Shown piece after piece: positions 44,991 through 61,619 of a stretch of 64,000 bases of DNA. The stretch comes from Natranaeroarchaeum aerophilus (GTDB lineage: Archaea; Halobacteriota; Halobacteria; Halobacteriales; Natronoarchaeaceae): positions 1-64,000 of the forward strand of contig NZ_JAKRVY010000007.1 of the NCBI RefSeq assembly GCF_023638055.1, written 5' to 3'. A model generated the notes under the pieces. The model did no database searches and was not told where the DNA came from. It saw only the letters and a program-made list of their open reading frames with translations. Position 1 is the first letter of the stretch, and every line of letters starts with the position of its first letter. Both the position numbers and the translations under genes were made by a program.

Positions 44991-45701
44991 TTACTTATTT
45001 GCGGAAAGGGCAATATCAGGCATCTCGATATTATGTTTCTTTGCGAGTTTGCGGTACCAGTCTTGTCGGTCAATGATGTCGTACACTGTCCCTCTACTGA
45101 TTCCTGTTTTATCAACGATGTTCGTTTTTGGCGCATCTGCATCGTTGAGGGCAAGCACCATTAGTGCATCCTCAAATCCGTCCCCTGGGACAAGATGATG
45201 TCCATTATTGTCGTGCTCTGTTCCATACCGGGGCCGGCCTTGGTGGTAGCCGTTCTCAACCCGCTCGTTAATTTTCTTCTTGGCCTGCTGGATTTCGCGG
45301 CGTTTGGCTACATCGTCCATATAATTACGAATCATCTCGATGAGCCATGACTCGTCGTCTTCTAGCTCAACACACTCGCCGTCTTTGGTCGTCCAGAGTT
45401 CGACACCCCACTCGTCTAGGTCGTAGTAGAGCATTGACCGCTCACGCTTATCACGGGAGAGTCGGTCACGGTCCCGGACGACCACGGCGTCTACGTCTTC
45501 ATCTTTGAGTGTTGCCTGCATCTCAAGATACTCAGGACGGTCTGCGTCAAACCCAGAAGAACGTTGACCGTCGTCATAGATGCGGAGCAGGTCGAACCCC
45601 TGGCCGTCGGTGAGCTGGCGAATTTCTCTTTGTTGGTCAGAAATGCTAGTGTCGCTGGTCTGGGACAGCCGACTGTATCCGACCGCGGTTTTTTTACTCA
45701 T
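44991..45701 (-). CDS. Small serine recombinase (resolvase/invertase family)
   Basis: A 236-residue serine recombinase. The N-terminal catalytic domain has GYSRLSQTSDTSISDQQREI (Arg and the active Ser within the usual YxRxS segment), then VVVRDRDRLSRDKRERSMLYY, the conserved DRLSR motif. A linker helix and a C-terminal helix-turn-helix follow (APKTNIVDKTGISRGTVYDII). It may resolve dimers, invert a segment, or belong to a second mobile unit within the element. The ATG at 45701 overlaps the upstream small gene's end, so translation is coupled. Confidence 0.85.
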   Translation of the reverse strand: MSKKTAVGYSRLSQTSDTSISDQQREIRQLTDGQGFDLLRIYDDGQRSSGFDADRPEYLEMQATLKDEDVDAVVVRDRDRLSRDKRERSMLYYDLDEWGVELWTTKDGECVELEDDESWLIEMIRNYMDDVAKRREIQQAKKKINERVENGYHQGRPRYGTEHDNNGHHLVPGDGFEDALMVLALNDADAPKTNIVDKTGISRGTVYDIIDRQDWYRKLAKKHNIEMPDIALSANK

Positions 45702-45855
45702 TGTTATCAGCTCGCTCGGTGACACGTAGTTTGAGTGTATTTTGTGATTCTACCTCCCACTCAGCATCGGCTCCCTTGAGGTTCATTGCGTCAGCAAGAT
45801 TTTTGTTAATTGTTACCACGTATTGTCCGTTGGATTTCTGTTGAATTTTGACCAT
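45694..45855 (-). CDS. 53-residue AbrB/MazE-like small protein
   Basis: A 53-residue protein that overlaps the serine recombinase start by eight bases (ATGAGTAA). The sequence VKIQQKSNGQYVVTINKNLA, then MNLKGADAEWEVESQNTLKL, has the swapped-hairpin AbrB/MazE/SpoVT pattern, in which two such chains form a DNA-binding dimer. It is expected to regulate the recombinase unit and its own promoter. The alternative is a solitary antitoxin, but no toxin partner is adjacent. Confidence 0.65.
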   Translation of the reverse strand: MVKIQQKSNGQYVVTINKNLADAMNLKGADAEWEVESQNTLKLRVTERADNNE

Positions 45856-45892: not shown

Positions 45893-46198
45893 AAGCTACT
45901 TGTAAACCGGGGGTGTCGAGATATAGAGGTTTCTAACACACTTCGTGGTGATGTCGGAGCTTTTCTTTGTGTCGTTTCCATCTGCCAGAACTGCAGTCCA
46001 AAAAATAGAGCTCAGACGCATATAGGTCTATTTTTAATTCTTCCAAATCATCAAGCAGTATCCGATGAGTATTGCGACCGACATCATACACATAGTGAGG
46101 CCGTCAATAAGCTCAACAAAGTTTTCTTCAGTTCGGAGGTCAGAGTGTCAAAAATAACTTGCCACACATTGATATGACCTGAGTGTATTACCCAGCGT
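45893..46198. other. Gap upstream of the methyltransferase gene
   Basis: About 305 bases. The plus-strand frame 45848-46177 crosses the operator and small gene and has no protein-like pattern, so it is rejected. No strong TATA element is visible just before the ATG at 46199; GATATG around 46171 is the nearest weak match. Confidence 0.35.
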
Positions 46199-49100
46199 AT
46201 GACTCTTCAGCAGATTTCCGCATCTGATATTACGAGCTGGGACTCTTTACAGGACATTGCAGCCACATTCGAGAAACGCGGGCTCAAGTTGAGACCAAAC
46301 CTTGGAGAAGACCATCAACTCGTCCTCCAACTCTCTGACGAGGAATTCGTCGTTCTCGTCGAGGCCGGACCAGGCGAATCTGCGACCGATTTCAAACCTG
46401 AAAACCGCACACGGCACACAAACCTCGTCGCGACGAACGATTTCGAGGACTTCACTTTCCTGACGCGCGTGCGCAGTTGGGAAGGCCAGCAGCACGGTCG
46501 TATCAAGCACCAGAAACTCTCCTTTAGCAAGAAACAGTTCCAGTCCGGGAGTGGCGAGAAGAACACCATCTTACAGAAACTGAACTCCATCGAGTACGGC
46601 TCGTCGGCAGCCATCTACGACACACTCTACGACACCCGGAAGGTCGTCAAAGAGTTCTACCAACAATTCGAGAGCCTGCGCACCAACCTTGTGCAGGAGG
46701 TTTCAGGTATCCCTGACAACCGGGGCGATGCAAAGCAACGGTACGTGCAGATTATTCTCGACCGGATGATTTTCCTCTACTTCATTCAAGAGAAGCGGCT
46801 GCTCGACCGAAACCCTGACTACCTCCATGAAGAGCCCGCGAAAGTCGTGGATGAGGGCGACGACCGCTACGAGGAGTTTTACGAGCCGCTGTTCTTCGAT
46901 TACCTCGCGGAGGATAAACAGAACCCGGACTTCGGTAAACTCCCGTACCTAAACGGTGGTTTGTTCGCGAAGAACCCCGTCGAAGAGGAGTTTGAAGACG
47001 CAAAACTGGGCAACACCGCCGAGAAGACGAACGAACTGTTCGACGATATTCTGGACTTCCTTTCCGACTGGAACTGGAATGTTGACGAACGGCTCGACAT
47101 CGTTGACCCGAAAAACCTCTCCCCAGCGATTCTCGGTCACATCTTCGAGCAGACGGTCAACCAGAAGGAGATGGGCGCATACTACACGCCAGAGGAGATT
47201 ACCGGCTTCATGGCTCGCCGGACGATTCACCCATACCTCCTCGACGAACTCAACGAGGTTGTTGGCGCGACCTACGAGGAAATCGACGACGTATTTGGCT
47301 TCCCAGAGACAGGTGCGAGTGCTGATACGGCGGCCATCGCTGACGGGGGGATGGTCACCCAGCAGGCCGCGACGGAGAACGTAGAGACTGGTCACGTCGA
47401 GACGCTGTACCACGACATCCTAAAAGAGGCGCAGATTCTTGACCCCGCTGTCGGGAGTGGCGCGTTCCTTCTGGCGGGACAGGAAATTCTGCTTGACCTC
47501 TATATGCAATGCATCGAGTTCTTCCAGCAACTCGAAGCCGAGGGGAAAGGCTGGGAACTGGAGTCACGAACACGGGATGAGTTGGAGACCATCGCGTCGG
47601 GGGGAGGGAACGCATCGCTGTTTGCGAAGCGGACTATCATCCTGAATAACCTATATGGGGTGGACATCGACGAAGGTGCGGTCGAAATATGTAAACTCCG
47701 GCTGTGGCTCTCGATGGTTGCGGACATTGAGGATGAGCCCGGCGAGGTTGAACCGCTCCCCAACATTGATTTCAATATCCGACAGGGCAACTCACTCATC
47801 GGATTCACAGATGTCCAAGAGATTGCTACTGATAAAGGAGATGCTTCCCTCTCGAACTTTGGTGGCGGTGTTGGTGAAAGTGTTCAGGAGATGTATGAGG
47901 AGGTAATTACAGCGGTTAAACGCCATAAAAATGCAGATACATCACAAGAAGCTACAAATGCAAGGAGATTGGCCGAAACGCGAATTGACGAGTATAGTGA
48001 TTCCCTAGATGAAAAAATCCTCCAAAGGTTCGAAGATGCAGGTGTAGATGATGTTTCGCTCACGGAAATTAGAGAACATTCACCATTTCATTGGGTCCTT
48101 GAGTTCGCTTCGGTCTATGCAGATGGAGGATTTGATGTTATCGTCGGAAACCCCCCGTGGGACAAGGTGAAGGTGACAAGAGATGATTACTTCATAAAAT
48201 ATGACCCCGGTTTCCGAAGTCTACCAACTAAACTAAAGGACGACCGTCAAGAGGAACTGCTAGAAAAGGATGAGATTGCAGAGGGATGGGAGGAGTACAA
48301 ACATCAAGCCGACCGTTTGGGGACCTATTACCGAAGCCAGTTTTCAAAACAGACTGCTCAAGTTAGTGGGCGTACTGTCGCGGGTGACACAGACTTGGCA
48401 CCTCTGTTCCTAGAGAGGAGTGAAGAAATAGTCGATGACGGCTCATATGTTTCGTTAATCGTCCCGAACATCGTTTTCACAGGCGGGTCATATAAGAATT
48501 TGAGACGGAATCTGCTCAAAAAGAATACGCTTGATTCACTCTTCACCTTTGAAAACCGAGGTATCTTCCAACATGTAGATACTCGATACACCTTCACTAT
48601 ATCCACATTCACAGTAGGGAGCAAAACTCAGTCACTTCTCTGTTCCTTCAAACGTGGCGACCTCTCAGTACTCAGGACGCCGGAAGCTAGTGGAATATCG
48701 ACACCTGCCAAAGTCCTACTCAAGTTTTCACCCGAATCGGGGATGTTTCCTAAGATTCGCTCTAGTGAACATGTTGATATTCTCCAAAAAATCACCCAGC
48801 ATTCTTCGCTAGAACAAGCGTGGACTGTGAACACATACAGAGAACTTGACCAGACAAATGACTCTGACAGATTCTTTAATGAAGACGGGGAGAACAGGTA
48901 TCGCTTATATGGGGGCCGGAATATTTTCCAGTTCTCTTACTCGCCGCCATACGCGCAAGAAGTAGATTACTATGGTATTCCTGAAGATGAGGCTCCTGAA
49001 AAGAGTGCTAAAACACGAATTAGACAGAAGAATACGAGAGCGCTAAAGAATGCAATCTATGAGCATATTGATGCACCTTCCTCCAAATCGAAGAAAAAAG

Positions 49101-49792
49101 CCGTCAACGAATATCTAGACGGAATAAGAGGTGAAGGTCTGAGTGAGAGTGACGTATTATTAGACTGTACTGAATACCGTCTTGCCTATCGTGATATTGC
49201 GCGACCAACGGATGAACGTACGACAATTGCTGCAGTCCTACCGAAAGGAGTTGCAACCTATACAAACCTGACCACAATTCGGCCGTATTCTATCGAACCC
49301 GATAAAGCATCTATGTCGGAGGTACCTCTGCATGGTGTGTATAAGAAGAAGTACTCCAATTGGGAATTATTTGCACTTCTAGGTCTCCTCAACAGTCTTC
49401 CGTTTGATTTCTTAATCGGTGAGAAGACAGATAAGCGAATTGCTACATACAGTATTCTTGAGTCACAAGTTCCGAAATTAGACCATGGGGGCGAATGGTT
49501 CGAATATATTGCCTATAGAGCGGCCCGACTGAATTGTTACGGGGATGAGTTTAGGGAAATGAGGGAGAGGCTAGGTGATATTGAACCCGCGACAGACAAG
49601 AAAGAGCGGAGTAGAATACAGGCCGAAATTGACGCTGCTGCTCTCCATGTATATGGCTTGGACTATGATGATGCAAAGTTCATTCTGGAGGACTTCCATC
49701 GGGTACAAAACCCGCGTGTAATGACCGACGCATACTTCGAGACTGTTGAGGAGAAGTACTTAGAGTTATCAGACCAGCATTCAATCCAGTAA
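46199..49792 (+). CDS. PglX/Eco57I-type adenine-specific DNA methyltransferase
   Basis: A 1197-residue protein whose centre is an N6-adenine methyltransferase. SAM motif I is ILDPAVGSGAFLL (Asp415 region). The catalytic motif IV is NPPW at about residues 651-654, in DVIVGNPPWDKVKV. Before motif I is the MGAYYTPEEITGFMARRTI block typical of PglX and Eco57I-like enzymes. The C-terminal about 500 residues hold target-recognition and coiled regions. No PD-(D/E)XK nuclease motif was seen in the N-terminal 300 residues, so cleavage would need a partner. Its 3' end overlaps the TBP-like gene by 12 bases on the other strand. Confidence 0.88.
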   Translation: MTLQQISASDITSWDSLQDIAATFEKRGLKLRPNLGEDHQLVLQLSDEEFVVLVEAGPGESATDFKPENRTRHTNLVATNDFEDFTFLTRVRSWEGQQHGRIKHQKLSFSKKQFQSGSGEKNTILQKLNSIEYGSSAAIYDTLYDTRKVVKEFYQQFESLRTNLVQEVSGIPDNRGDAKQRYVQIILDRMIFLYFIQEKRLLDRNPDYLHEEPAKVVDEGDDRYEEFYEPLFFDYLAEDKQNPDFGKLPYLNGGLFAKNPVEEEFEDAKLGNTAEKTNELFDDILDFLSDWNWNVDERLDIVDPKNLSPAILGHIFEQTVNQKEMGAYYTPEEITGFMARRTIHPYLLDELNEVVGATYEEIDDVFGFPETGASADTAAIADGGMVTQQAATENVETGHVETLYHDILKEAQILDPAVGSGAFLLAGQEILLDLYMQCIEFFQQLEAEGKGWELESRTRDELETIASGGGNASLFAKRTIILNNLYGVDIDEGAVEICKLRLWLSMVADIEDEPGEVEPLPNIDFNIRQGNSLIGFTDVQEIATDKGDASLSNFGGGVGESVQEMYEEVITAVKRHKNADTSQEATNARRLAETRIDEYSDSLDEKILQRFEDAGVDDVSLTEIREHSPFHWVLEFASVYADGGFDVIVGNPPWDKVKVTRDDYFIKYDPGFRSLPTKLKDDRQEELLEKDEIAEGWEEYKHQADRLGTYYRSQFSKQTAQVSGRTVAGDTDLAPLFLERSEEIVDDGSYVSLIVPNIVFTGGSYKNLRRNLLKKNTLDSLFTFENRGIFQHVDTRYTFTISTFTVGSKTQSLLCSFKRGDLSVLRTPEASGISTPAKVLLKFSPESGMFPKIRSSEHVDILQKITQHSSLEQAWTVNTYRELDQTNDSDRFFNEDGENRYRLYGGRNIFQFSYSPPYAQEVDYYGIPEDEAPEKSAKTRIRQKNTRALKNAIYEHIDAPSSKSKKKAVNEYLDGIRGEGLSESDVLLDCTEYRLAYRDIARPTDERTTIAAVLPKGVATYTNLTTIRPYSIEPDKASMSEVPLHGVYKKKYSNWELFALLGLLNSLPFDFLIGEKTDKRIATYSILESQVPKLDHGGEWFEYIAYRAARLNCYGDEFREMRERLGDIEPATDKKERSRIQAEIDAAALHVYGLDYDDAKFILEDFHRVQNPRVMTDAYFETVEEKYLELSDQHSIQ

Positions 49793-50326
49793 TTGTCTGA
49801 GTTCCTCATTAAACGACTCAAGTGCTTTCTTTGCATCAAGGGGGTCTGGATTTCCAGTGTAAATGTAGGAGCCAGTTCGGTAGAGGGTGAAAAGACCGCG
49901 ATATTCCTTCTTACGGTAATTTAGTCCCGGACTCAGGGTTGGGTCATACTCTACGTCTTCGTGAAGGTCCAATGCGACCGCCTCTAGGTTAACCTCCTGA
50001 CCAATATTCCCATTATATACTAAATTTCGCACGTCAGGCTCTTCTATAACGACCTTCAGACCTAGATGCTCTTCTAATATATCTACTAATTCATTATACG
50101 CTTCCTTAATCTGGTCAACATTTTCCCCTCCAGTAAGATGGTATGTTCCAGTCCGAAACAGCATAACTGTTACCGAAGTATCAGGTAGTTCAAAATGTAG
50201 TCCCGGGGCTTCCTCTGGCTCGTATGATGGAGAGAGGTACTTCATATCCTCAAATGCGTTGTGTAAATCGACCTCAATACCGAGGTCGCCTCCAGCAACT
50301 ACGTTCACTAGGGTATAGTTGACCAT
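49781..50326 (-). CDS. Divergent TATA-binding-protein paralogue
   Basis: A 181-residue protein with two TBP repeats: VNVVAGGDLGIEVDLHNAF to YHLTGGENVDQIKEAY, and VRNLVYNGNIGQEVNLEAVALDL to YIYTGNPDPLDAKKAL. The conserved Asn residues (N8, N101), PGL and RTG motifs are retained. Of the four Phe that kink TATA DNA, only F57 remains; the others are A40, S132 and Y149. Binding to canonical TATA boxes is therefore likely altered. It lies 48 bases after the helicase gene on the same strand. The ATG at 50326 is chosen over a GTG at 50344. An element-specific transcription factor or a DNA-recognition subunit are the main options. Confidence 0.8.
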   Translation of the reverse strand: MVNYTLVNVVAGGDLGIEVDLHNAFEDMKYLSPSYEPEEAPGLHFELPDTSVTVMLFRTGTYHLTGGENVDQIKEAYNELVDILEEHLGLKVVIEEPDVRNLVYNGNIGQEVNLEAVALDLHEDVEYDPTLSPGLNYRKKEYRGLFTLYRTGSYIYTGNPDPLDAKKALESFNEELRQLLD

Positions 50327-50374
50327 ACTGAAGACAGACAGCACATAGCAAAAAGAGCCCCGGCATACTTGTGT

Positions 50375-53300
50375 CTATGTGCCAACAATACCCCAACAGA
50401 CTAACTGTGCTTGGACATCACTCTCCCGGACGAGTGTATCCTGATATTCAGTAGATGCCTCAATATTCTCTTCCAGAAATGATTCGAGTGTTTTGAGGAA
50501 TTCGGCAGGCGGCCAATCTGGGAACAAGTCGTACTCATCGTGGTGACGGAAGGTATCGCGAAGAATTCGGTCTTCGTCGGTATTCGCAAGTTTGAACTCA
50601 CCAAGCCGACTGTGGAGGTCGTCGGTCCACTCATCAATCGTGTCGTGGTCTTCATGCGAGCAGGGGTCGTCCCCAAAGTTAGGCTGGAGGTAGTGAGCGA
50701 GGAAGTCCAGAATCGTCTCTTGTTCCTTCGAGAACGAATCGCCCTGCTTGAACGCTCCCTCAACCTGCCCTTCACGTATCGCTTCAAGCCGGTCGTTAAG
50801 CACTTCCTCAATCTCCTTTCGGTTCGCCAGTACATTGTCGATGTTCCCCAAGACCGGCTCACCCTTGACAGATGGGCTGATTGAAAGCGTCTGGATAGAC
50901 CGCTCTTTCACGTCGTCACCAAACGGCTTGTAGTAGAATGCCCGACGTACGCGCCCGAGTGGAGCGTTCTCCTCCTCACTGTTGAACCAGAGATGTGCTA
51001 GCCCGAATACACCTGGACGCGGCCCCTTGTCATGGTTGATGGTATTCGTAAAGAGCAATTCCCGCTCGTCCGGTGAGTCGTTGAAGAATTCCTCTGCATA
51101 CTCGAAGTCGTCAGCTGTGAGCCCGTACTCTTCATTCAACTCCTGCTTTAGCAGGAATCGGTCGTACGCCGCCTCTTCGTTGCTTCCAGCATTTCGGAGG
51201 AGCGGGTTCTTGCTCGTATCGTCGAGTTCGTTTACGTCCTCGACTTCACGCGACCGGCGCAATGAGTCCTCAATTTCATCGACTTCCAGTTCTCCGATGG
51301 TCTTCTGGGTATCGACGCCCGCTTTTTCCAGAATCTGGTCCTCGTTCGGGTCAAGGATGTTATTCTCCTTGCCGACGATGAGTGCGATGTCATTGATTTT
51401 CGCCTGCAACCGTTTCAGCAACTTGATGGCCGCCTCAATGTCGCCGTCAGGATAGAAGTTGTGGACATGTTTCTCCGCCGTACTCCCGATGCGGTCGATA
51501 CGACCGACGCGCTGGACGATGCGCATCGGGTTCCACGGGAGGTCGTAGTTAACCACGACATGAACATCCTGCAAGTTCACCCCTTCGCTCAGCGTGTCAG
51601 TCGCGACGACGTACTGGAGTTCGGTTTCATCTGATTCTGCGAGCGTACTTTGGTATCCAGATGCCTGCGGCGCGAATCGCTGGATAATATCCTGCTTGTT
51701 CTCGTCGCCGCCCTTCACGACCGCACTGTTTGCCGCCGTCAGCGGAGAGTTAGGGTTGTCTCGGAGCGTCCGATAGACGTAATCGGCGGTCCCTCGGTAC
51801 TGCGTGAAAATGAGGACCTTTTGGTCGTGGTTCTGGAGAACCTCTGCGAGCCGGTCGATTTTCGGGTCGCGGAATTCCCGGAGTGAGAAGATTGCCTCGT
51901 AGAAGTCACGCGTCGCAGCATCGATTTCCGCCAGGTCACTCCTCGGGTACAGGACAGGGTTCATTTCCTCCTCAGAGACCTCAGGGAGCGTACCAGCATT
52001 GTGGTTGTGAAGCCATTGTCGCACCGTGACTGCATGGTCGCTTACGTCTCCAGCATCGCGGGCCACATCTCCGATGAATTGCGTGAGGAAGTATGCGAGT
52101 AACGTCAGGTCCTCACGGATGTAGTTTTTCACCTCACCAATTGTCGCGTCTGCCAGTTCATTCTCTACCTTTCCCTCACCTCCGTCGGCACGAACTGAGG
52201 TCGAGTCGAAGCCGAACTCTTCAAGCGTCTGTTCGAGGTCTTCGGCAGCGTCCTCTCCCTCAACGAAGTCGTCGATGGTTACAGCGGCCTCACCATTCTG
52301 TACGCTACGCAGGAGGTCGATGTCCTCGTCTTCGGGCAGGTCTTCTAGAAAGCCAAGAAGCCGACGCTCGCTCTGGTGTAGGGTCTCGATGGACTGGACA
52401 AACGCGTACGTCGACGATTCCAGTCGCTTGAGTAGGTTCAATTTGTATAACGCTTTCAGAGTCCCCCCAGCCTGCGGATTCTTCACTGTGATGTGCGGGA
52501 GATGAAGTGCGTCCATCACATCGGGAAGCATCCGATAGATGGGCTGGTAGGCGGGCGGCAGAGAGTACTGTTCCTTGTGAAGTTTTGGTGGCTTGAAACT
52601 CATCTCGAAATCTTCGTCAGCCTGAATCTGTTCCTTGACGTGCTTGCGCGTTCGCAGAACCATCACCTCGTTGAGGATGTTCGAGATTTCATTCGAGTGG
52701 CGCTGCAACTGCTCAGTGATTTGCTGTTGCTTCTGTTCTGACACTTCCTCCTTCCCGGCGGCAATACGTTTTCTGACTTCTGCGAGTTCGATGTACTCGT
52801 CGAACGCGTCAAAGTCGAGTGAGGCCTTGTTACGGAGTTCCTCCGGGCTCGTGAATAGGCTGATAAGATTCTTCAGGTCAGTAGCACTATTGTTGAGGGG
52901 CGTCGCGGTCAGCATTATCATCGTTTTCCCGCGTAATTGGCGGAGATTTGCGTGCCGCCGCGTTCCCTTGTAGTCGTCATCGTGAGTTGGGTTCGGACGC
53001 CACTTCCCAAAGTTGCGGAAGCGATGGGCCTCGTCAATGAGAAGTACGTCGAATTGGTCACGGAGTTTCTGAACCTCCTCGTAGCCGAGGTTCTGGAACT
53101 TGCTAATGCTCATCACATCGAGATGTTTCCCGTCCATCTCCAGTCCGAAATAAGGATTCCCATCCTCGTCAGTACCGTCTTGAAGCAAATCTTCCCACTG
53201 GTCGGTCAAGTTCGCAGGGACAATGAGTAGACAGCGGTCACCGTGCTGCCGATAGTCATAGAGCAATTCGCCGCCAATAAATGACTTCCCGAGGCCAACA

Positions 53301-54187
53301 GAATCGGAAATAATGCAGCCATCGTACTGGGAGAGTTTCTCGCGTGCGCTCTCGTAGCCGAGTTTCTGGAAGTAGTAGAGCGGGCTGTCCCGAGCACTGA
53401 CGTTACCGTTGAGTTCGTCATACGCGAGGAGCTTGTAGAGTTCGAAGGGTTCGAGATACGTCCCGAGTTCCTCTTCAGTGGTACTATCTGACTCCTTTTC
53501 TTTCTCCTGTTTTTCCTTCCATTCTTTGTACTGGTCGCTATTCTCAATAATGTGAAGGATTTCTTCACTGAATACCTCAGCGTTCGCCCACTGGTTGTCA
53601 TACCAGTCCTCAAAGGCTTGCGTTTGATAACGGTCTTGGCTGGTGAGATTAAGTTCAATATTGTTTCGGTGACCGCTAGCCGAGAAGTTCGAAGAGCCGA
53701 CGATAGTGGCACAGGCACGTTTATCTACCTCGCCATCAGAAGCCGGTTCCTCTCCGTCGTCAAGCGGGGCACGGAACGCAGCCCCCTTCGCGTGGAAGTA
53801 ACCGTTTTCCGGGCTTCGAACACGGACCTCAACGATTCCCTCCGCGACAAACTCTCGAAGCCGATTGAGTCGTCCGAGTTGCGCATTGTTTAGACTCTTG
53901 ATGTCATCCTTCAATTCCTGTTTGAAGGCTTCTCGAAGATTCTGCCCCTCCTCAATTTCATCGGCAGTCTGTTGATTGGTCTGACGACCCATGAGAATGC
54001 GAAGCGGTGCATGACTGAGTTCGTCGGGCTCGGCCAGATTACCCAAGTCCTCCTTGTAGAGGTCGAAGCCGGAGAGATAGAAGTAGCCAGTCGCGATTCG
54101 TGCCTCTTCGATTTGCGGAATGATTTTTTTGTAGACTTCTTCGAGATTTTTATCCGTGTTATCGACAAGTGGGGGAACGGAGAGCAT
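50375..54187 (-). CDS. PLD-nuclease/SNF2-family helicase fusion
   Basis: A 1270-residue two-part enzyme. The N-terminal about 210 residues resemble a phospholipase D nuclease: HAK at residues 132-134 and VGSSNFSASG around 164-171, one HKD-type set, so dimerisation would complete the site. An SF2 helicase of SNF2/RapA type follows: Walker A SDSVGLGKSF (294-303), DEAH 385-388, TATP 427-430, and motifs V-VI in SEGVNLQDVHVVVNYDL and QRVGRIDRIG (about 870-897). The C-terminus is charged and long. Related PLD-helicases occur near methyltransferases in defence islands. A TATA-like ATTTAA is centred 25 bases upstream. Confidence 0.87.
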   Translation of the reverse strand: MLSVPPLVDNTDKNLEEVYKKIIPQIEEARIATGYFYLSGFDLYKEDLGNLAEPDELSHAPLRILMGRQTNQQTADEIEEGQNLREAFKQELKDDIKSLNNAQLGRLNRLREFVAEGIVEVRVRSPENGYFHAKGAAFRAPLDDGEEPASDGEVDKRACATIVGSSNFSASGHRNNIELNLTSQDRYQTQAFEDWYDNQWANAEVFSEEILHIIENSDQYKEWKEKQEKEKESDSTTEEELGTYLEPFELYKLLAYDELNGNVSARDSPLYYFQKLGYESAREKLSQYDGCIISDSVGLGKSFIGGELLYDYRQHGDRCLLIVPANLTDQWEDLLQDGTDEDGNPYFGLEMDGKHLDVMSISKFQNLGYEEVQKLRDQFDVLLIDEAHRFRNFGKWRPNPTHDDDYKGTRRHANLRQLRGKTMIMLTATPLNNSATDLKNLISLFTSPEELRNKASLDFDAFDEYIELAEVRKRIAAGKEEVSEQKQQQITEQLQRHSNEISNILNEVMVLRTRKHVKEQIQADEDFEMSFKPPKLHKEQYSLPPAYQPIYRMLPDVMDALHLPHITVKNPQAGGTLKALYKLNLLKRLESSTYAFVQSIETLHQSERRLLGFLEDLPEDEDIDLLRSVQNGEAAVTIDDFVEGEDAAEDLEQTLEEFGFDSTSVRADGGEGKVENELADATIGEVKNYIREDLTLLAYFLTQFIGDVARDAGDVSDHAVTVRQWLHNHNAGTLPEVSEEEMNPVLYPRSDLAEIDAATRDFYEAIFSLREFRDPKIDRLAEVLQNHDQKVLIFTQYRGTADYVYRTLRDNPNSPLTAANSAVVKGGDENKQDIIQRFAPQASGYQSTLAESDETELQYVVATDTLSEGVNLQDVHVVVNYDLPWNPMRIVQRVGRIDRIGSTAEKHVHNFYPDGDIEAAIKLLKRLQAKINDIALIVGKENNILDPNEDQILEKAGVDTQKTIGELEVDEIEDSLRRSREVEDVNELDDTSKNPLLRNAGSNEEAAYDRFLLKQELNEEYGLTADDFEYAEEFFNDSPDERELLFTNTINHDKGPRPGVFGLAHLWFNSEEENAPLGRVRRAFYYKPFGDDVKERSIQTLSISPSVKGEPVLGNIDNVLANRKEIEEVLNDRLEAIREGQVEGAFKQGDSFSKEQETILDFLAHYLQPNFGDDPCSHEDHDTIDEWTDDLHSRLGEFKLANTDEDRILRDTFRHHDEYDLFPDWPPAEFLKTLESFLEENIEASTEYQDTLVRESDVQAQLVCWGIVGT

Positions 54188-54300
54188 TCTGGATACTGGG
54201 AATTCTCATTAAATCAACTTAGTCTTTCGCAGCAGTATCTGTGGATTCACGATTGAACTAAACTCGTCATAGGTATGGTACTCAAACAAGGAAGATACTG

Positions 54301-54861: not shown

Positions 54862-55950
54862 ATGCGTTCCGATATGGACTTTCTGAATGTCGGTGATAGA
54901 GAGTTCGATACTCTCGAAGAGGTCACCTTCCACATCCGCCAGAACGTAAATGTCACTAACTTCGATGGCGACTTGAGCGTTATCGGCTCGGTTTGTGACT
55001 TCGACTCCACAGATGAATTCGTCCACTCGCTGGAGTCACACTTTTCCTTGGAACGGCAGAACGGCAATCTTCTGTTATTGAACGCCAAGGAATTCGATGT
55101 TCCCTACTATGTCTTCCTTAGCAACGAGTTCCCAATTTTCTTCACCACTGGACGAAAGACTCGCGACTTTCCAGAGACGATTAACGCTTATTTTAAGGGC
55201 GAGCAAAATATCGGTCGGCTTTGGATTAGCAAGCGTGAGATGGAGAATCTCCGTCAACGCGTCGTAAACAAACACCCTGACGTTATCATCCCGTATTTCA
55301 CCGCGACCCGGAGCCGCCATTCTGAGGTAGAGGCGAACCGCCGCCCGCGTTTTGAACGGACCTTCCAGTACTACGCGAAAGACGGCTTGGATACATTCAA
55401 CGAGCTAAAATACGAGTATGGGGTGTTGCCGACGAATATCAAATTCCAGAAAACGAATGAGTTCAAGTTCCGGGTGACGACTCGGGGAGTATTCACCATA
55501 AACAACGGGGGGCTCGAACAAGTTCTAACAGTTATCGAGGATTCTATCGAGCGTCTGCGTGAGGTCAAGAAGGCCATCGACACCTCCGGGTTCTCTACTC
55601 GAACAAATAAGTACACACAGAGTGGCGGGATGGCTCAGAGTCGTCCGTGGGCTGTCGAACTCAGCCACGAGCTTACAGACGAAGACGTGCAACAATTTGA
55701 GGGGGAAGTATTGCAAGAGGATTGGGAATTTGACCTATCCGAGTTGGATGTCCGAGCCGGTGACGACCGCTATCACTTTAGTGCGGAACTTATTGATGAA
55801 CGGACGTTGGGGAAGACAATTCTCCGTTCGAACGAGAACTCCATTCGAATCTATCCTCGTGAGGATACAGGTATTGACCAGTCAATTCGAGTTTTTGAAT
55901 TCATCAACGACCAAATCGACCCCAAATCGATAGCTAGAAAGGTTGCATGA
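54862..55950 (+). CDS. Unknown protein paired with a nuclease gene
   Basis: A 362-residue cytosolic protein not recognised as any family. It contains aromatic-rich strands such as NAKEFDVPYYVFLSNEFPIFF, and a central basic-aromatic segment EANRRPRFERTFQYYAKDG. No catalytic motif is obvious. Its TGA overlaps the start of the next gene as ATGA, so the two are translated together, in the style of a sensor plus effector nuclease pair. A second ATG at 54874 is possible. Confidence 0.6.
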   Translation: MRSDMDFLNVGDREFDTLEEVTFHIRQNVNVTNFDGDLSVIGSVCDFDSTDEFVHSLESHFSLERQNGNLLLLNAKEFDVPYYVFLSNEFPIFFTTGRKTRDFPETINAYFKGEQNIGRLWISKREMENLRQRVVNKHPDVIIPYFTATRSRHSEVEANRRPRFERTFQYYAKDGLDTFNELKYEYGVLPTNIKFQKTNEFKFRVTTRGVFTINNGGLEQVLTVIEDSIERLREVKKAIDTSGFSTRTNKYTQSGGMAQSRPWAVELSHELTDEDVQQFEGEVLQEDWEFDLSELDVRAGDDRYHFSAELIDERTLGKTILRSNENSIRIYPREDTGIDQSIRVFEFINDQIDPKSIARKVA

Positions 55951-57119
55951 CAAGGCGATGGGCCGACGATAAGGTCGAGAGCATTCGGTCCGACCTACCG
56001 CCAGACGACCTTACCCGATTCAACACGCTGTACGAGGACGCACTGGATAGTACATCGGAGGAGGAAGTCCGTGACGACCTGGAAACGGGCTACCAAGAGT
56101 CAGAAGACCATCTTGAACTCGTCACAGCTGTTGCATCAGGATTCCACCAGACCCCAATAGCCGATGGGTATTCAAGCGGGTACGAGTTCGCCATTACCGA
56201 ACCGCTGGAGGAACTCAATCATACTGAAGACGAAGAGGTCACGAACGGTGATGTACTCCTCGTCCGCGAGACTGAAGACAACGATGACGACGAGATATAC
56301 CTCTGTATCGTCGAGTGTAAGGCCGGGAGCGAGGCAAGTGGACGCTGGATTTCAAAGCTCCAAGGTATCCGTGACGTAATGGATACAGAAGAGTACAGGC
56401 AGAGGCTCAAATCCCAAATTGGATTCGAGGATACGGAGATTAAATACACCCAGTGTGTCCTTCTCGGGATGATAATCCCCATTCACTCGATGAACTACGA
56501 GAAGCTGTCGGAGGATATGGACCTCCCTGACGACTTCGCGTTTTGGGGGTACGATGGCCGCGAACAGGGGATGGTCCACGTTGAAGGCGAAGTTCGTGAT
56601 AAGCCTCTTGCAGGCGTAATCAAGGACTCCATCGATGCGGGGAAAGTAGAGAACCCGCTCGAATTCACGTACGGCGACCATCCTCTCACCCAAATGAAGG
56701 TGCTTACTGAAGACATTATTAAAGAAAAGAAGCAGGAAGGGGACGAACATCCGTTTGAGTTCGAGCGGAGTGAATTCCGTGAACGCTTTGATAGGCACCT
56801 AGAGGTCGGATTCTCTGGAGACCGGCGCGAAAAACTCGTGGATGAACGTGTGGAACGCATTCTCGATGTCGGACTGAAAATCGATATATTCGTGGATAAC
56901 GACCTGAATTCGGAACGTGATTACCGAATTTACTTCAGGGGGAGTAAATACCACGTCGCGAAATCCTCGGCCGAACAAAAGTACTTTGACGAGATGTCGG
57001 TGGAGCGAAAGAAGGAGCGCGCGTTGGAGCAGGCTTGCGAGGAGTTCACGCGCGAGCAAACTCGGTTGGATGATGACTGGAGGACTTTCGACGGTCAAAT
57101 ATACGGAACCAGCGAGTAG
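55947..57119 (+). CDS. Candidate PD-(D/E)XK nuclease
   Basis: A 390-residue protein. A restriction-nuclease-like core is seen at about residues 78-130: GYEFAITEPL, then GDVLLV (Asp102) and IVECKAGSEASGRW (Glu123, Lys125). The spacing of D and E-x-K fits the PD-(D/E)XK superfamily, here with many acidic residues between. The C-terminal part is helical and charged. It overlaps the upstream gene by four bases. It could be the effector of the pair; the family itself was not recognised. Confidence 0.6.
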   Translation: MTRRWADDKVESIRSDLPPDDLTRFNTLYEDALDSTSEEEVRDDLETGYQESEDHLELVTAVASGFHQTPIADGYSSGYEFAITEPLEELNHTEDEEVTNGDVLLVRETEDNDDDEIYLCIVECKAGSEASGRWISKLQGIRDVMDTEEYRQRLKSQIGFEDTEIKYTQCVLLGMIIPIHSMNYEKLSEDMDLPDDFAFWGYDGREQGMVHVEGEVRDKPLAGVIKDSIDAGKVENPLEFTYGDHPLTQMKVLTEDIIKEKKQEGDEHPFEFERSEFRERFDRHLEVGFSGDRREKLVDERVERILDVGLKIDIFVDNDLNSERDYRIYFRGSKYHVAKSSAEQKYFDEMSVERKKERALEQACEEFTREQTRLDDDWRTFDGQIYGTSE

Positions 57120-57389: not shown

Positions 57390-58523
57390 CTACTTTTGAA
57401 TCTGTAGCTGTATCAGGGTGACCCATTTGATACTCTCAGACGCCATTTCTGGGTCTACCAGTGCTGTTACTGAGCCTTGATGGTGGTCCGCCAGCCCAAC
57501 TGTGGGCTCGCCTGTCTCAGCGTTACAGAGTAATTTGAGACGACACATCCCGGTATCGACCTTCCAAACTGTAACCCAGTTGCCGGACTGACGATTTGAC
57601 GTTCTAGTCGCCCAATCTCGCCTCTGTTCTGCATTCCATTCTGACAGGATGTTAGCCAGCCGTTTCAAGTCCTGTGACCTCCTTCTCAGGTTTGGGTCAT
57701 CTTCGTACTCAATAACAGAGCCGTTACGTATTTTCCTCAAGAGGACTCGAAGGCGACCCATTCCATCGACTGCTAACCCTATCTCGCTCCTTGTTCGGCC
57801 GCTATCGTAGAGTGGGGCACTGAATATAGTCTGTTCTCCCCCCTTGCCTGAATAGGTGTTGTACAGGCTTATTGCCCAGAGTGTTGAATGCTGGGGCGTA
57901 AACAACTCATCTGGGAACGGGATAGTTCGCTTTACTGATGGGTGGTGGGGTAGTCGTAGCCACTTGATGATGTTGTGATACCCGGACCACTCGTCTGGAG
58001 GCGGTATCTGCGCCGCCCACCACTTCGAGAGGTCACCAGCTCCGAGGTTAACGTTGTGGTCGTCGAAATGCGTAGAATTGAGCCATAGAACACTGTACTC
58101 GTTCGAGCGAAACGTCGCTTGGACGGCTTCTTTATCCTTCGTATGGTGTTTATATTGGACCTCAATTGCAATCCCGTCTCCGAGTGATTCATGATGATGG
58201 TCGAACTCGACCAGAACGTCTGTACGCCGGTCTCCAATTGGAGTTTCAATCGAGACGGTCGAATTGGAGAACGTCGCCTCGGCTTTTGAGGCGGCGATAG
58301 ATTTCAGTCGTTTGTGTTCCGCTGATTCACCGCTACCTGTTCCTGAACAACCGCCTGGTGGTTGCGTCGGATGTATAAAATGGCGAGCCACAAATGACCC
58401 TTTTCGACGGTGAGACTCCCGAATTGCGAGTTGGTTTCCGCATCCAGGGCACTCTGGAGAATCACTATTATTTGCTTCGTGTGGAGTACAGAGTTCCCCG
58501 TCGATTCGCGCGGTGAACGGCAT
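57390..58523 (-). CDS. CoiA-like zinc-finger nuclease
   Basis: A 377-residue protein related to competence protein CoiA. A zinc-binding N-terminus has CPGCGNQLAIRESHRRKG (C25, C28) and ARHFIHP (H48, H51), then a basic linker. The nuclease-like domain has RRTDVLVEF (Asp102), and IAIEVQYKHH (Glu121, Gln123), the E-x-Q variant typical of the family, followed by SVLWLNS. In bacteria CoiA acts in competence; in genomic islands such proteins are candidate defence nucleases. It lies downstream of the winged-helix gene with a 23-base gap. Confidence 0.7.
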   Translation of the reverse strand: MPFTARIDGELCTPHEANNSDSPECPGCGNQLAIRESHRRKGSFVARHFIHPTQPPGGCSGTGSGESAEHKRLKSIAASKAEATFSNSTVSIETPIGDRRTDVLVEFDHHHESLGDGIAIEVQYKHHTKDKEAVQATFRSNEYSVLWLNSTHFDDHNVNLGAGDLSKWWAAQIPPPDEWSGYHNIIKWLRLPHHPSVKRTIPFPDELFTPQHSTLWAISLYNTYSGKGGEQTIFSAPLYDSGRTRSEIGLAVDGMGRLRVLLRKIRNGSVIEYEDDPNLRRRSQDLKRLANILSEWNAEQRRDWATRTSNRQSGNWVTVWKVDTGMCRLKLLCNAETGEPTVGLADHHQGSVTALVDPEMASESIKWVTLIQLQIQK

Positions 58524-60476: not shown

Positions 60477-61619
60477 CTATTCTGTCGGGTCGTACGTATA
60501 ATCAGGGTGGCAACGGTCGAACGCATCCCTGAGTTCAATATCCCTGAATCGCAAATAATATTTAGTCGATTCTAGACTCTCGTGCCCCATTACTCGTCGC
60601 AATCGTTCGATGTCCATCGGTGGTGTTCCTGTTCGTTCCACTCCTCGAACAGAGTGAACGGCAAATGAATGACGTAATGTTTTAGCTGTGATACGATTAT
60701 TAACTGTATCATCAGCTCGTTGAATCCCGTCCTCTTGGATTCCAGCATTCTCAGCAGCTAATTTGACTATTTTATTTACTTGTCGAGCTTGTATTGAGGG
60801 CGTATTATATCCGACTATCAGATTATCAGACTCTGAGGCATGCGAATATGCATCTCGGCCACCTTTGTCGAGCCACTCCCTCATATGGGTTCGCATGGAA
60901 CGTGAATAATAGACTGGTCTAAGATATAGTTCGTGGTCTGGGTCATCTATCTTCCTCGTACGAATTCTAACAAGGCGGTTTTCAGGTTCATGGTTAATTA
61001 GTTTCGCATTCGCTAATTCATGGGGTCTACAACCGAAATTCCAAAGGCAGCGGATTACCATCTCATTTTTGAAATTTTTTGCCCCATCAATTAATTTTTC
61101 AATGAGTTCCAATTTAATCCAGTTAACATCGTTACGATGCAATTGTTTTCGGGCCTCACTGCCAGCATCCAGCCACTGGAGAAGATAGTCGTCCTCGAAC
61201 TTTTTATTATTTGCATCGATATATCCGATGCCATCTGTATCATATTTCCGCGTGTCAATGTGATACCGATTTAAATACGTGCGGACATCGTAGAATCGAC
61301 CTTGTATTGTTGAATGTGCTAACCCTGCATCTGTTTCCAGCCACTGCGAAAATTTCCGTAATACTTCGTGGCCGCAGTTTTCAGGTGTGTTTAAGTACGG
61401 GTATAATCCATCCAACCATGTCTCGAAATTTTTGATGACATCCTCATCAGCCACCCCCATGTAATCGATTAAGAACTGGTCAAACTGCTCTAAAGCTATC
61501 CGCTTCCGTTTGATATTACCGTCACTTCTTCGACTTTGCAAGTCTCTGAGCCAGTTTTCACCGCGAGGGAAGTTTAGCTCTGTCTCCAGTTCATATATGC
61601 GTCCTGAAACATTACTCAT
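60477..61619 (-). CDS. int: Tyrosine recombinase (integrase) of the element
   Basis: A 380-residue XerC/D-like integrase. The N-terminal SAM-like domain holds RRSDGNIKRKRIALEQFDQFL. Catalytic motifs are GCRPHELANAK (Arg I), TAKTLRHSFAVHS (Arg II; Lys where His is usual), MGHESLESTKYYLRF (His, and the nucleophile Tyr at the second Y of KYY). The Lys substitution in the box II His position is seen in some archaeal integrases. It starts inside the RHH gene stop (ATGA overlap). It is the enzyme expected to integrate and excise the element at nth. Confidence 0.88.
   Translation of the reverse strand: MSNVSGRIYELETELNFPRGENWLRDLQSRRSDGNIKRKRIALEQFDQFLIDYMGVADEDVIKNFETWLDGLYPYLNTPENCGHEVLRKFSQWLETDAGLAHSTIQGRFYDVRTYLNRYHIDTRKYDTDGIGYIDANNKKFEDDYLLQWLDAGSEARKQLHRNDVNWIKLELIEKLIDGAKNFKNEMVIRCLWNFGCRPHELANAKLINHEPENRLVRIRTRKIDDPDHELYLRPVYYSRSMRTHMREWLDKGGRDAYSHASESDNLIVGYNTPSIQARQVNKIVKLAAENAGIQEDGIQRADDTVNNRITAKTLRHSFAVHSVRGVERTGTPPMDIERLRRVMGHESLESTKYYLRFRDIELRDAFDRCHPDYTYDPTE

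Follow-up and report, generated by a model that had tools for sequence, protein, structure and literature searches.

Why a paralogue of the TATA-binding protein (TBP) should be encoded between a helicase and a DNA methyltransferase (MTase) is the question raised by a 64,000-nucleotide stretch of the haloarchaeon Natranaeroarchaeum aerophilus (contig NZ_JAKRVY010000007.1, positions 1 to 64,000; hereafter the window). TBP is the sole domain that a Pfam scan finds in the small protein concerned, and PF00352 matches it in two stretches, the two TBP repeats (E=1.6e-32; 111.6 bits against a cut-off of 22.9). Its AlphaFold2 model has a saddle fold with a predicted local distance difference test score (pLDDT) of 95.9 and matches solved archaeal and eukaryotic TBPs in the Protein Data Bank (PDB) with TM-scores of 0.81-0.90. 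The closest solved relative is the Pyrococcus woesei TBP (1ais_A, E=8.5e-24). A first-pass annotation, made from the letters alone, had proposed a 181-residue TBP with two repeats lying 48 bases behind a 1270-residue PLD/SNF2 helicase on the same strand. The profile match places the protein within the TBP superfamily, and coordinates and domains agree with the rest: 48 bp separate the helicase stop (50375) from the ATG of the downstream TBP gene.

Canonical TBPs have phenylalanines at four intercalating sites (FFFF), one pair in each lobe. Alignment with 1ais_A gives A40, F57, S132 and Y149 at these sites of the window TBP (A/F/S/Y), the same residues that had been read before. The accompanying statement that the DNA-kinking phenylalanines were lost was slightly too strong: three of the four are replaced, but F57 is kept and one replacement is another aromatic, tyrosine. 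With a Phe and a Tyr still in place, the annotation's idea that DNA may be held without sharp kinking is not supported in the form given. The C-lobe glutamates of TBP contact transcription factor B (TFB) (PMC7221094). In the window TBP this stirrup reads DPTL in place of EPEQ, and the canonical EPE glutamates are missing. Phenylalanine loss in divergent haloarchaeal paralogues of the TbpC type was published in 2014, with the presumption that a TBP lacking both pairs no longer functions as a transcription factor (PMC4230888). TbpC-like TBPs mostly lose the N-lobe pair only and keep the C-lobe pair, whereas the window TBP has changes in each lobe and is also without the TFB-contact glutamates.

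A genome search with the window TBP found one orthologue, the single close one known, in genome G135 (locus L069) from another haloarchaeal family. It is 86% identical, occupies the same slot, has the same A/F/S/Y residues and carries DPSL at the stirrup; the TBP and MTase ends meet there too. This agreement in slot and residues shows that the placement of the window TBP is not due to chance. The two proteins form their own long-branch pair in the tree (100/100) and do not cluster with TbpC-type TBPs, which have the pattern YYFF. A close-homologue scan of the genome contigs with the window TBP gave no match, and a phylum-wide search for a broader TBP origin (E<=1e-36) gave matches in Halobacteria only.

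Divergent TBPs were surveyed by TBP sequence, not by neighbours, through matches of one such protein (L128) in 344 haloarchaeal genomes; to these were added loci collected earlier and a number of annotated ones from plasmids and viruses. About 6 kb were read per side, genes were called by a simple composition rule, MTases were recognized by homology to eight seeds or by motif, and identical TBP cores were removed before counting. A DNA MTase lies within 5.5 kb of 75 of the 85 distinct altered-Phe TBPs and of none of the FFFF TBPs, a small control of 10 distinct proteins (Fisher p=1.8e-8). The MTase is within 200 bp in 39 of the 85. TBPs are common on haloarchaeal plasmids, and the plasmid-borne FFFF TBPs have no MTase nearby. 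Since a sample of 59 genomes has only a few Eco57I/N6_Mtase loci per genome, adjacency by chance should not exceed a few percent. Of the altered TBPs outside this count, several lie where a contig ends or next to other defence genes, and one, from halovirus HJTV-2, has an annotated N4-cytosine MTase that the motif missed. The association of divergent TBPs with DNA MTases is well supported, and from it we infer a mechanism.

Altered TBPs of the survey have kept much of the canonical protein. The C-lobe Phe pair is retained in 77 of 85 and the TFB-contact EPE in 81 of 85; the N-lobe pair is retained in only five, and where it is changed Phe has often become Tyr. A single YYFF query recruited most of the sample, which biases the proportion of YYFF. 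Only three sampled proteins, the window TBP among them, are altered in both lobes. Spacing is operon-like in 47 of 79 distinct cases, 21 of which overlap the upstream gene, and a divergent neighbour lies within 200 bp in 15 of the 79 (an MTase in seven).

Divergent TBPs travel with the MTases of many unrelated restriction-modification (RM) and BREX-type systems, far more widely than the annotation had guessed. Among their partners are type I RM, BREX, Druantia-like, DISARM-like and type IIG-like systems, the PLD-SNF2 module of the window and two halovirus RM cassettes. The annotation had taken the combination seen in the window to be absent from the described DISARM, BREX and type I/ISP systems, but TBPs are present in haloarchaeal BREX and type I loci. 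PglX, PglZ and BrxC accompany a TBP in three BREX loci (L121, L240 and L241); of these, the Halobaculum locus (L240) has the gene order BrxC-PglX-TBP-PglZ, and in the Halanaeroarchaeum locus (L241) the TBP and a BREX-5 PglX are divergent. Type I systems are represented by HsdM-HsdS-HsdR-TBP (L218) and by L198, where the TBP diverges from HsdR-HsdM genes. TBPs are also found beside DruE and an MTase (L122), beside an MTase and a BrxHII/DrmD-like helicase (L119, L126 and L128), and beside single MTases of several classes (L118, L120, L123 and L124). In Halorientalis litorea a "TATA-box-binding protein C" is next to a DUF1156 protein and DUF499. The phage collection contains two kinds of halovirus TBP, and each adjoins virus-encoded RM genes: in HRTV-9 the TBP (L242 6010-6549) follows a type IIG enzyme, and in HJTV-2 (L243 5977-6591) it is near the N4-cytosine MTase and Eco29kI. 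Plasmid pNRC100 of Halobacterium NRC-1 has an MTase-MTase-helicase-TBP cluster in which the TBP is last after a 4-bp overlap (111987-112532; L177 16988-17533). This protein has the YYFF pattern and, by match to the published description, is probably TbpC.

Three of these loci (L119, L128 and L126, the last in the window's own genome) are MTase-TBP-helicase-TBP operons with two TBPs each. In L119 and L128 the two look complementary, the C-lobe being changed in one TBP (FFSP) and the N-lobe in its companion (YYFF).

RM systems of many unrelated types in bacteria encode small DNA-binding controller (C) proteins, either with the RM genes or divergently from them. C proteins are helix-turn-helix proteins and have been proposed to time restriction against methylation. 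We hold, with moderate confidence, that divergent TBPs are portable cis-encoded transcription factors that control RM expression, a haloarchaeal counterpart of C proteins; the likeness is one of analogy only, not homology, the TBP saddle replacing the helix-turn-helix. Most likely each of these TBPs would serve the promoters of its own host module and so determine how strongly that module is expressed. A typical one is expected to recruit TFB and RNA polymerase still, at altered promoter sequences or an altered DNA half-site, because most have kept the Phe pair of the C-lobe along with the TFB-contact glutamates. Why haloarchaea have several TBPs is a long-standing question, and recurrence in RM and defence operons offers a definite candidate function for the divergent ones, including TbpC, which has been described as possibly non-functional. 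It also suggests that archaea may have turned to a general transcription factor, and not to a helix-turn-helix protein, to solve RM timing.

A different role would be that of a working subunit or cofactor of the restriction or methylation machinery, in which the saddle recognizes DNA, perhaps methylated, or presents it to the helicase or MTase, and has no part in transcription. RnlA toxins and RNase HIII do have TBP-like domains that bind nucleic acid (PMC7221094, PMC3710099), and the change of three Phe and the TFB-contact glutamates in the window TBP is compatible with such a role. The TBPs accompany many unrelated enzymes, however, which points to a general job such as regulation and not to a subunit of a single enzyme; most close relatives of the helicase-MTase module have no adjacent TBP; and EPE retention across the survey would be unexpected in a pure enzyme subunit. 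Operon-like or divergent spacing, kept C-lobe and EPE residues and unrelated partner enzymes favour the regulatory role, and we consider the subunit role improbable.

Applied to the window, the regulatory reading takes a particular form. The MTase would mark self DNA, the PLD-SNF2 helicase probably translocates on and cuts unmarked DNA, and the module carries a cis-encoded regulator of the TBP family. Having lost the TFB glutamates and both Phe of the C-lobe, the window TBP is predicted to restrain transcription rather than activate it, either by sitting on promoter DNA or as a competitor of canonical TBP; judged from its residues, it may more likely be a repressor or competitor than an activator. 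A wider proposal, that a set of haloarchaeal TBPs left general transcription to become dedicated switches of RM, BREX and other MTase-based defence, viral systems included, and that their altered residues may sense promoter adenine methylation by the partner MTase and so couple restriction to finished self-methylation, seems to us doubtful as a whole. Reading of modified DNA by the window TBP is speculative.

Comparison of the module itself across haloarchaea gives a measure of how closely it is tied to a TBP. At E<=1e-60 the window helicase has matches in 45 of 394 haloarchaeal genomes, as well as in 20 plasmid records, and the module is often plasmid-borne and spread across haloarchaeal families. 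In most of 70 distinct helicase loci the same MTase faces the helicase in convergent orientation, so the two genes make up a stable RM-like unit. The six loci with an adjacent TBP (the window, L069, L072, L098, L086 and L117) have it in varying slots: behind either gene, before the MTase or divergent from the helicase. A single clade of module-specific TBPs was rejected, as these proteins belong to four TBP lineages. About 0.28 adjacent TBPs would be expected by chance, assuming five TBPs per 3,700 genes and three slots per locus; six then have a Poisson p of 5e-7 and four independent events one of 2e-4, rough values that depend on the assumed rates and ignore clustering of accessory genes. 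Of 65 helicase upstream regions, 37 have ACTAAG between -37 and -33, and 25 of 52 MTase upstream regions have TT[GC]ATA at about -30, in each case with or without a cis TBP. Both are conserved promoter-like elements. The idea that loci with a cis TBP have a promoter element of their own was rejected, both motifs being present in TBP-less loci too.

In many plasmid copies of the module (L073, L074, L075, L076, L092 and L154), a second, inverted MTase gene is present in either orientation. It lacks about 430 N-terminal residues, L154 and L162 have a site-specific integrase annotated beside it, and it resembles an invertible specificity cassette.

Several observations weigh against TBPs as regulators of RM modules. 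With a TBP in only 6 of 70 loci and promoter elements present without one, the module needs no cis TBP, and a cis TBP is optional for it; the conserved link to neighbours recurs across haloarchaea as TBPs beside MTases, but not as a fixed part of this module. The window TBP departs from canonical TBP at both TFB-contact positions and cannot be grouped simply with the TFB-binding majority. TbpC has been considered possibly non-functional (PMC4230888). Deletion of tbpC in NRC-1 had no apparent phenotype (PMC2121645). The proposal draws on gene context and residues, and the roles in expression and binding are predictions from them.

TBPs could also make a transferred RM operon or virus cassette self-sufficient, ensuring its transcription whatever host it enters, without any regulatory feedback. 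The two halovirus RM cassettes with their own TBP, and a module that is so often on plasmids of different families, would suit this explanation. Most helicase-MTase copies nevertheless move without a TBP, and the window TBP has no TFB-contact residues of the kind needed for simple activation; of the explanations considered, we regard this one as the least probable.

The TBP could also be a decaying or hitch-hiking copy. Under this explanation a TBP was duplicated onto RM-rich mobile islands, where it hitch-hikes, and its Phe losses reflect relaxed selection. TBPs on haloarchaeal plasmids, the recombinase genes that flank the window region and the published suggestion of TbpC loss of function (PMC4230888) are in line with this. 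The ratio of nonsynonymous to synonymous substitution (dN/dS) between the window TBP and its orthologue, which are from two families, is 0.18 (NG86) or 0.27 (YN00), compared with 0.05-0.13 for neighbouring genes. The window TBP gene is under purifying selection, and pseudogene decay is disfavoured. The reading frame is intact and the fold is predicted with high confidence, start/stop overlap with RM genes is frequent, and the plasmid-borne FFFF TBPs are without an MTase, so that we think decay unlikely.

The novelty of a TBP in a defence module was a further claim of the first-pass annotation, and it holds in part. An altered TBP does lie in an RM/defence-type module, and the MTase link recurs and is non-accidental; the Phe loss, however, is already published (PMC4230888), in a paper with no mention of methylases, methyltransferases or restriction, and TBP genes are present in bacterial TALON and TOTE systems (PMC12458937). 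For the RM link, a literature search of papers outside subscription found no report tying haloarchaeal TBPs to RM systems.

The window helicase and MTase both match RM/defence models. The helicase has a single HxK...GSSN PLD motif, Walker A GLGKS, a DEAH box and QRVGRIDR, and its top PADLOC match is C3a139 "HKD+Snf2" (E=2.2e-83). The MTase has the motifs DPAVGSGAF and NPPW, and its gene is convergent with both the helicase and the TBP. Type-2 "BREX-related" systems likewise have an N-terminal HKD/PLD nuclease-Swi2/Snf2 helicase and an N6-adenine MTase (PMC12839542), as do the window genes. These systems also have a DUF499 ATPase and DUF3780, neither of which gave a Pfam match in a scan that covered neighbouring genes of the window and, for DUF499, did not extend to the whole genome, and "TBP" and "TATA" do not occur in the text describing them (PMC12839542). 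TOTE and TALON share with the window a TBP gene in a prokaryotic conflict operon, but they are largely from Chloroflexota and have a TPR-CSD protein, with a YprA-like helicase and a NERD nuclease in TALON (PMC12458937); no TPR-CSD/OB protein, YprA-like helicase or NERD nuclease was found among the neighbours scanned. In CglI/NgoAVII-type ATP-dependent restriction an endonuclease also works with a helicase-like ATPase (PMC5737866). The two are separate proteins there, whereas the PLD domain of the window is fused to the helicase. Matches of the window helicase to DISARM are only partial and of DrmD type, with no DrmA/B/C match among the other neighbours scanned, which were not every open reading frame (ORF) of the window. 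PglZ and BrxC of BREX were not found among the neighbours scanned, and the nuclease, helicase and MTase that type ISP enzymes combine in one polypeptide are here in two convergent genes.

Table 1. Features of the TBP locus and its surroundings (positions in the window).
Feature	Position	Strand	Size	Basis or remark
Serine resolvase	44991..45725			
TTGATA element	46169..46174	+		30 bp upstream of MTase start
Adenine DNA MTase, Eco57I/type IIG-like	46199..49792	+	1197 aa	Eco57I/N6_Mtase domains (Pfam, PADLOC)
Overlap of convergent TBP and MTase 3' ends	49781..49792		12 bp	Coordinates
TBP paralogue	49781..50326	-	181 aa	From ATG 50326; Pfam, 1ais_A alignment, AlphaFold2, PDB fold match
TBP ORF with alternative start	49781..50344	-	187 aa	From GTG 50344
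PLD-nuclease + SNF2 helicase	50375..54187	-	1270 aa	Pfam PLDc_2, SNF2-rel/ResIII, Helicase_C
ACTAAG element	54218..54223	-		Upstream of helicase start (-36)
Gene pair	54862..57119	+	362 and 390 aa	No Pfam/PADLOC match
377-aa protein	57390..58523	-	377 aa	No Pfam match
Tyrosine integrase	60477..61619			

The positions of the locus and its flanks are collected in Table 1. A serine resolvase and a tyrosine integrase flank the region, suggesting that it is mobile. The gene pair on the far side of the helicase is divergent from it and has relatives near the helicase in L090 (44% and 30%) and L103; the two may be accessory genes. Relatives of the 377-aa protein lie near the helicase-MTase module in L072, L075, L079 and L097, and beside the two-TBP operon in L126.

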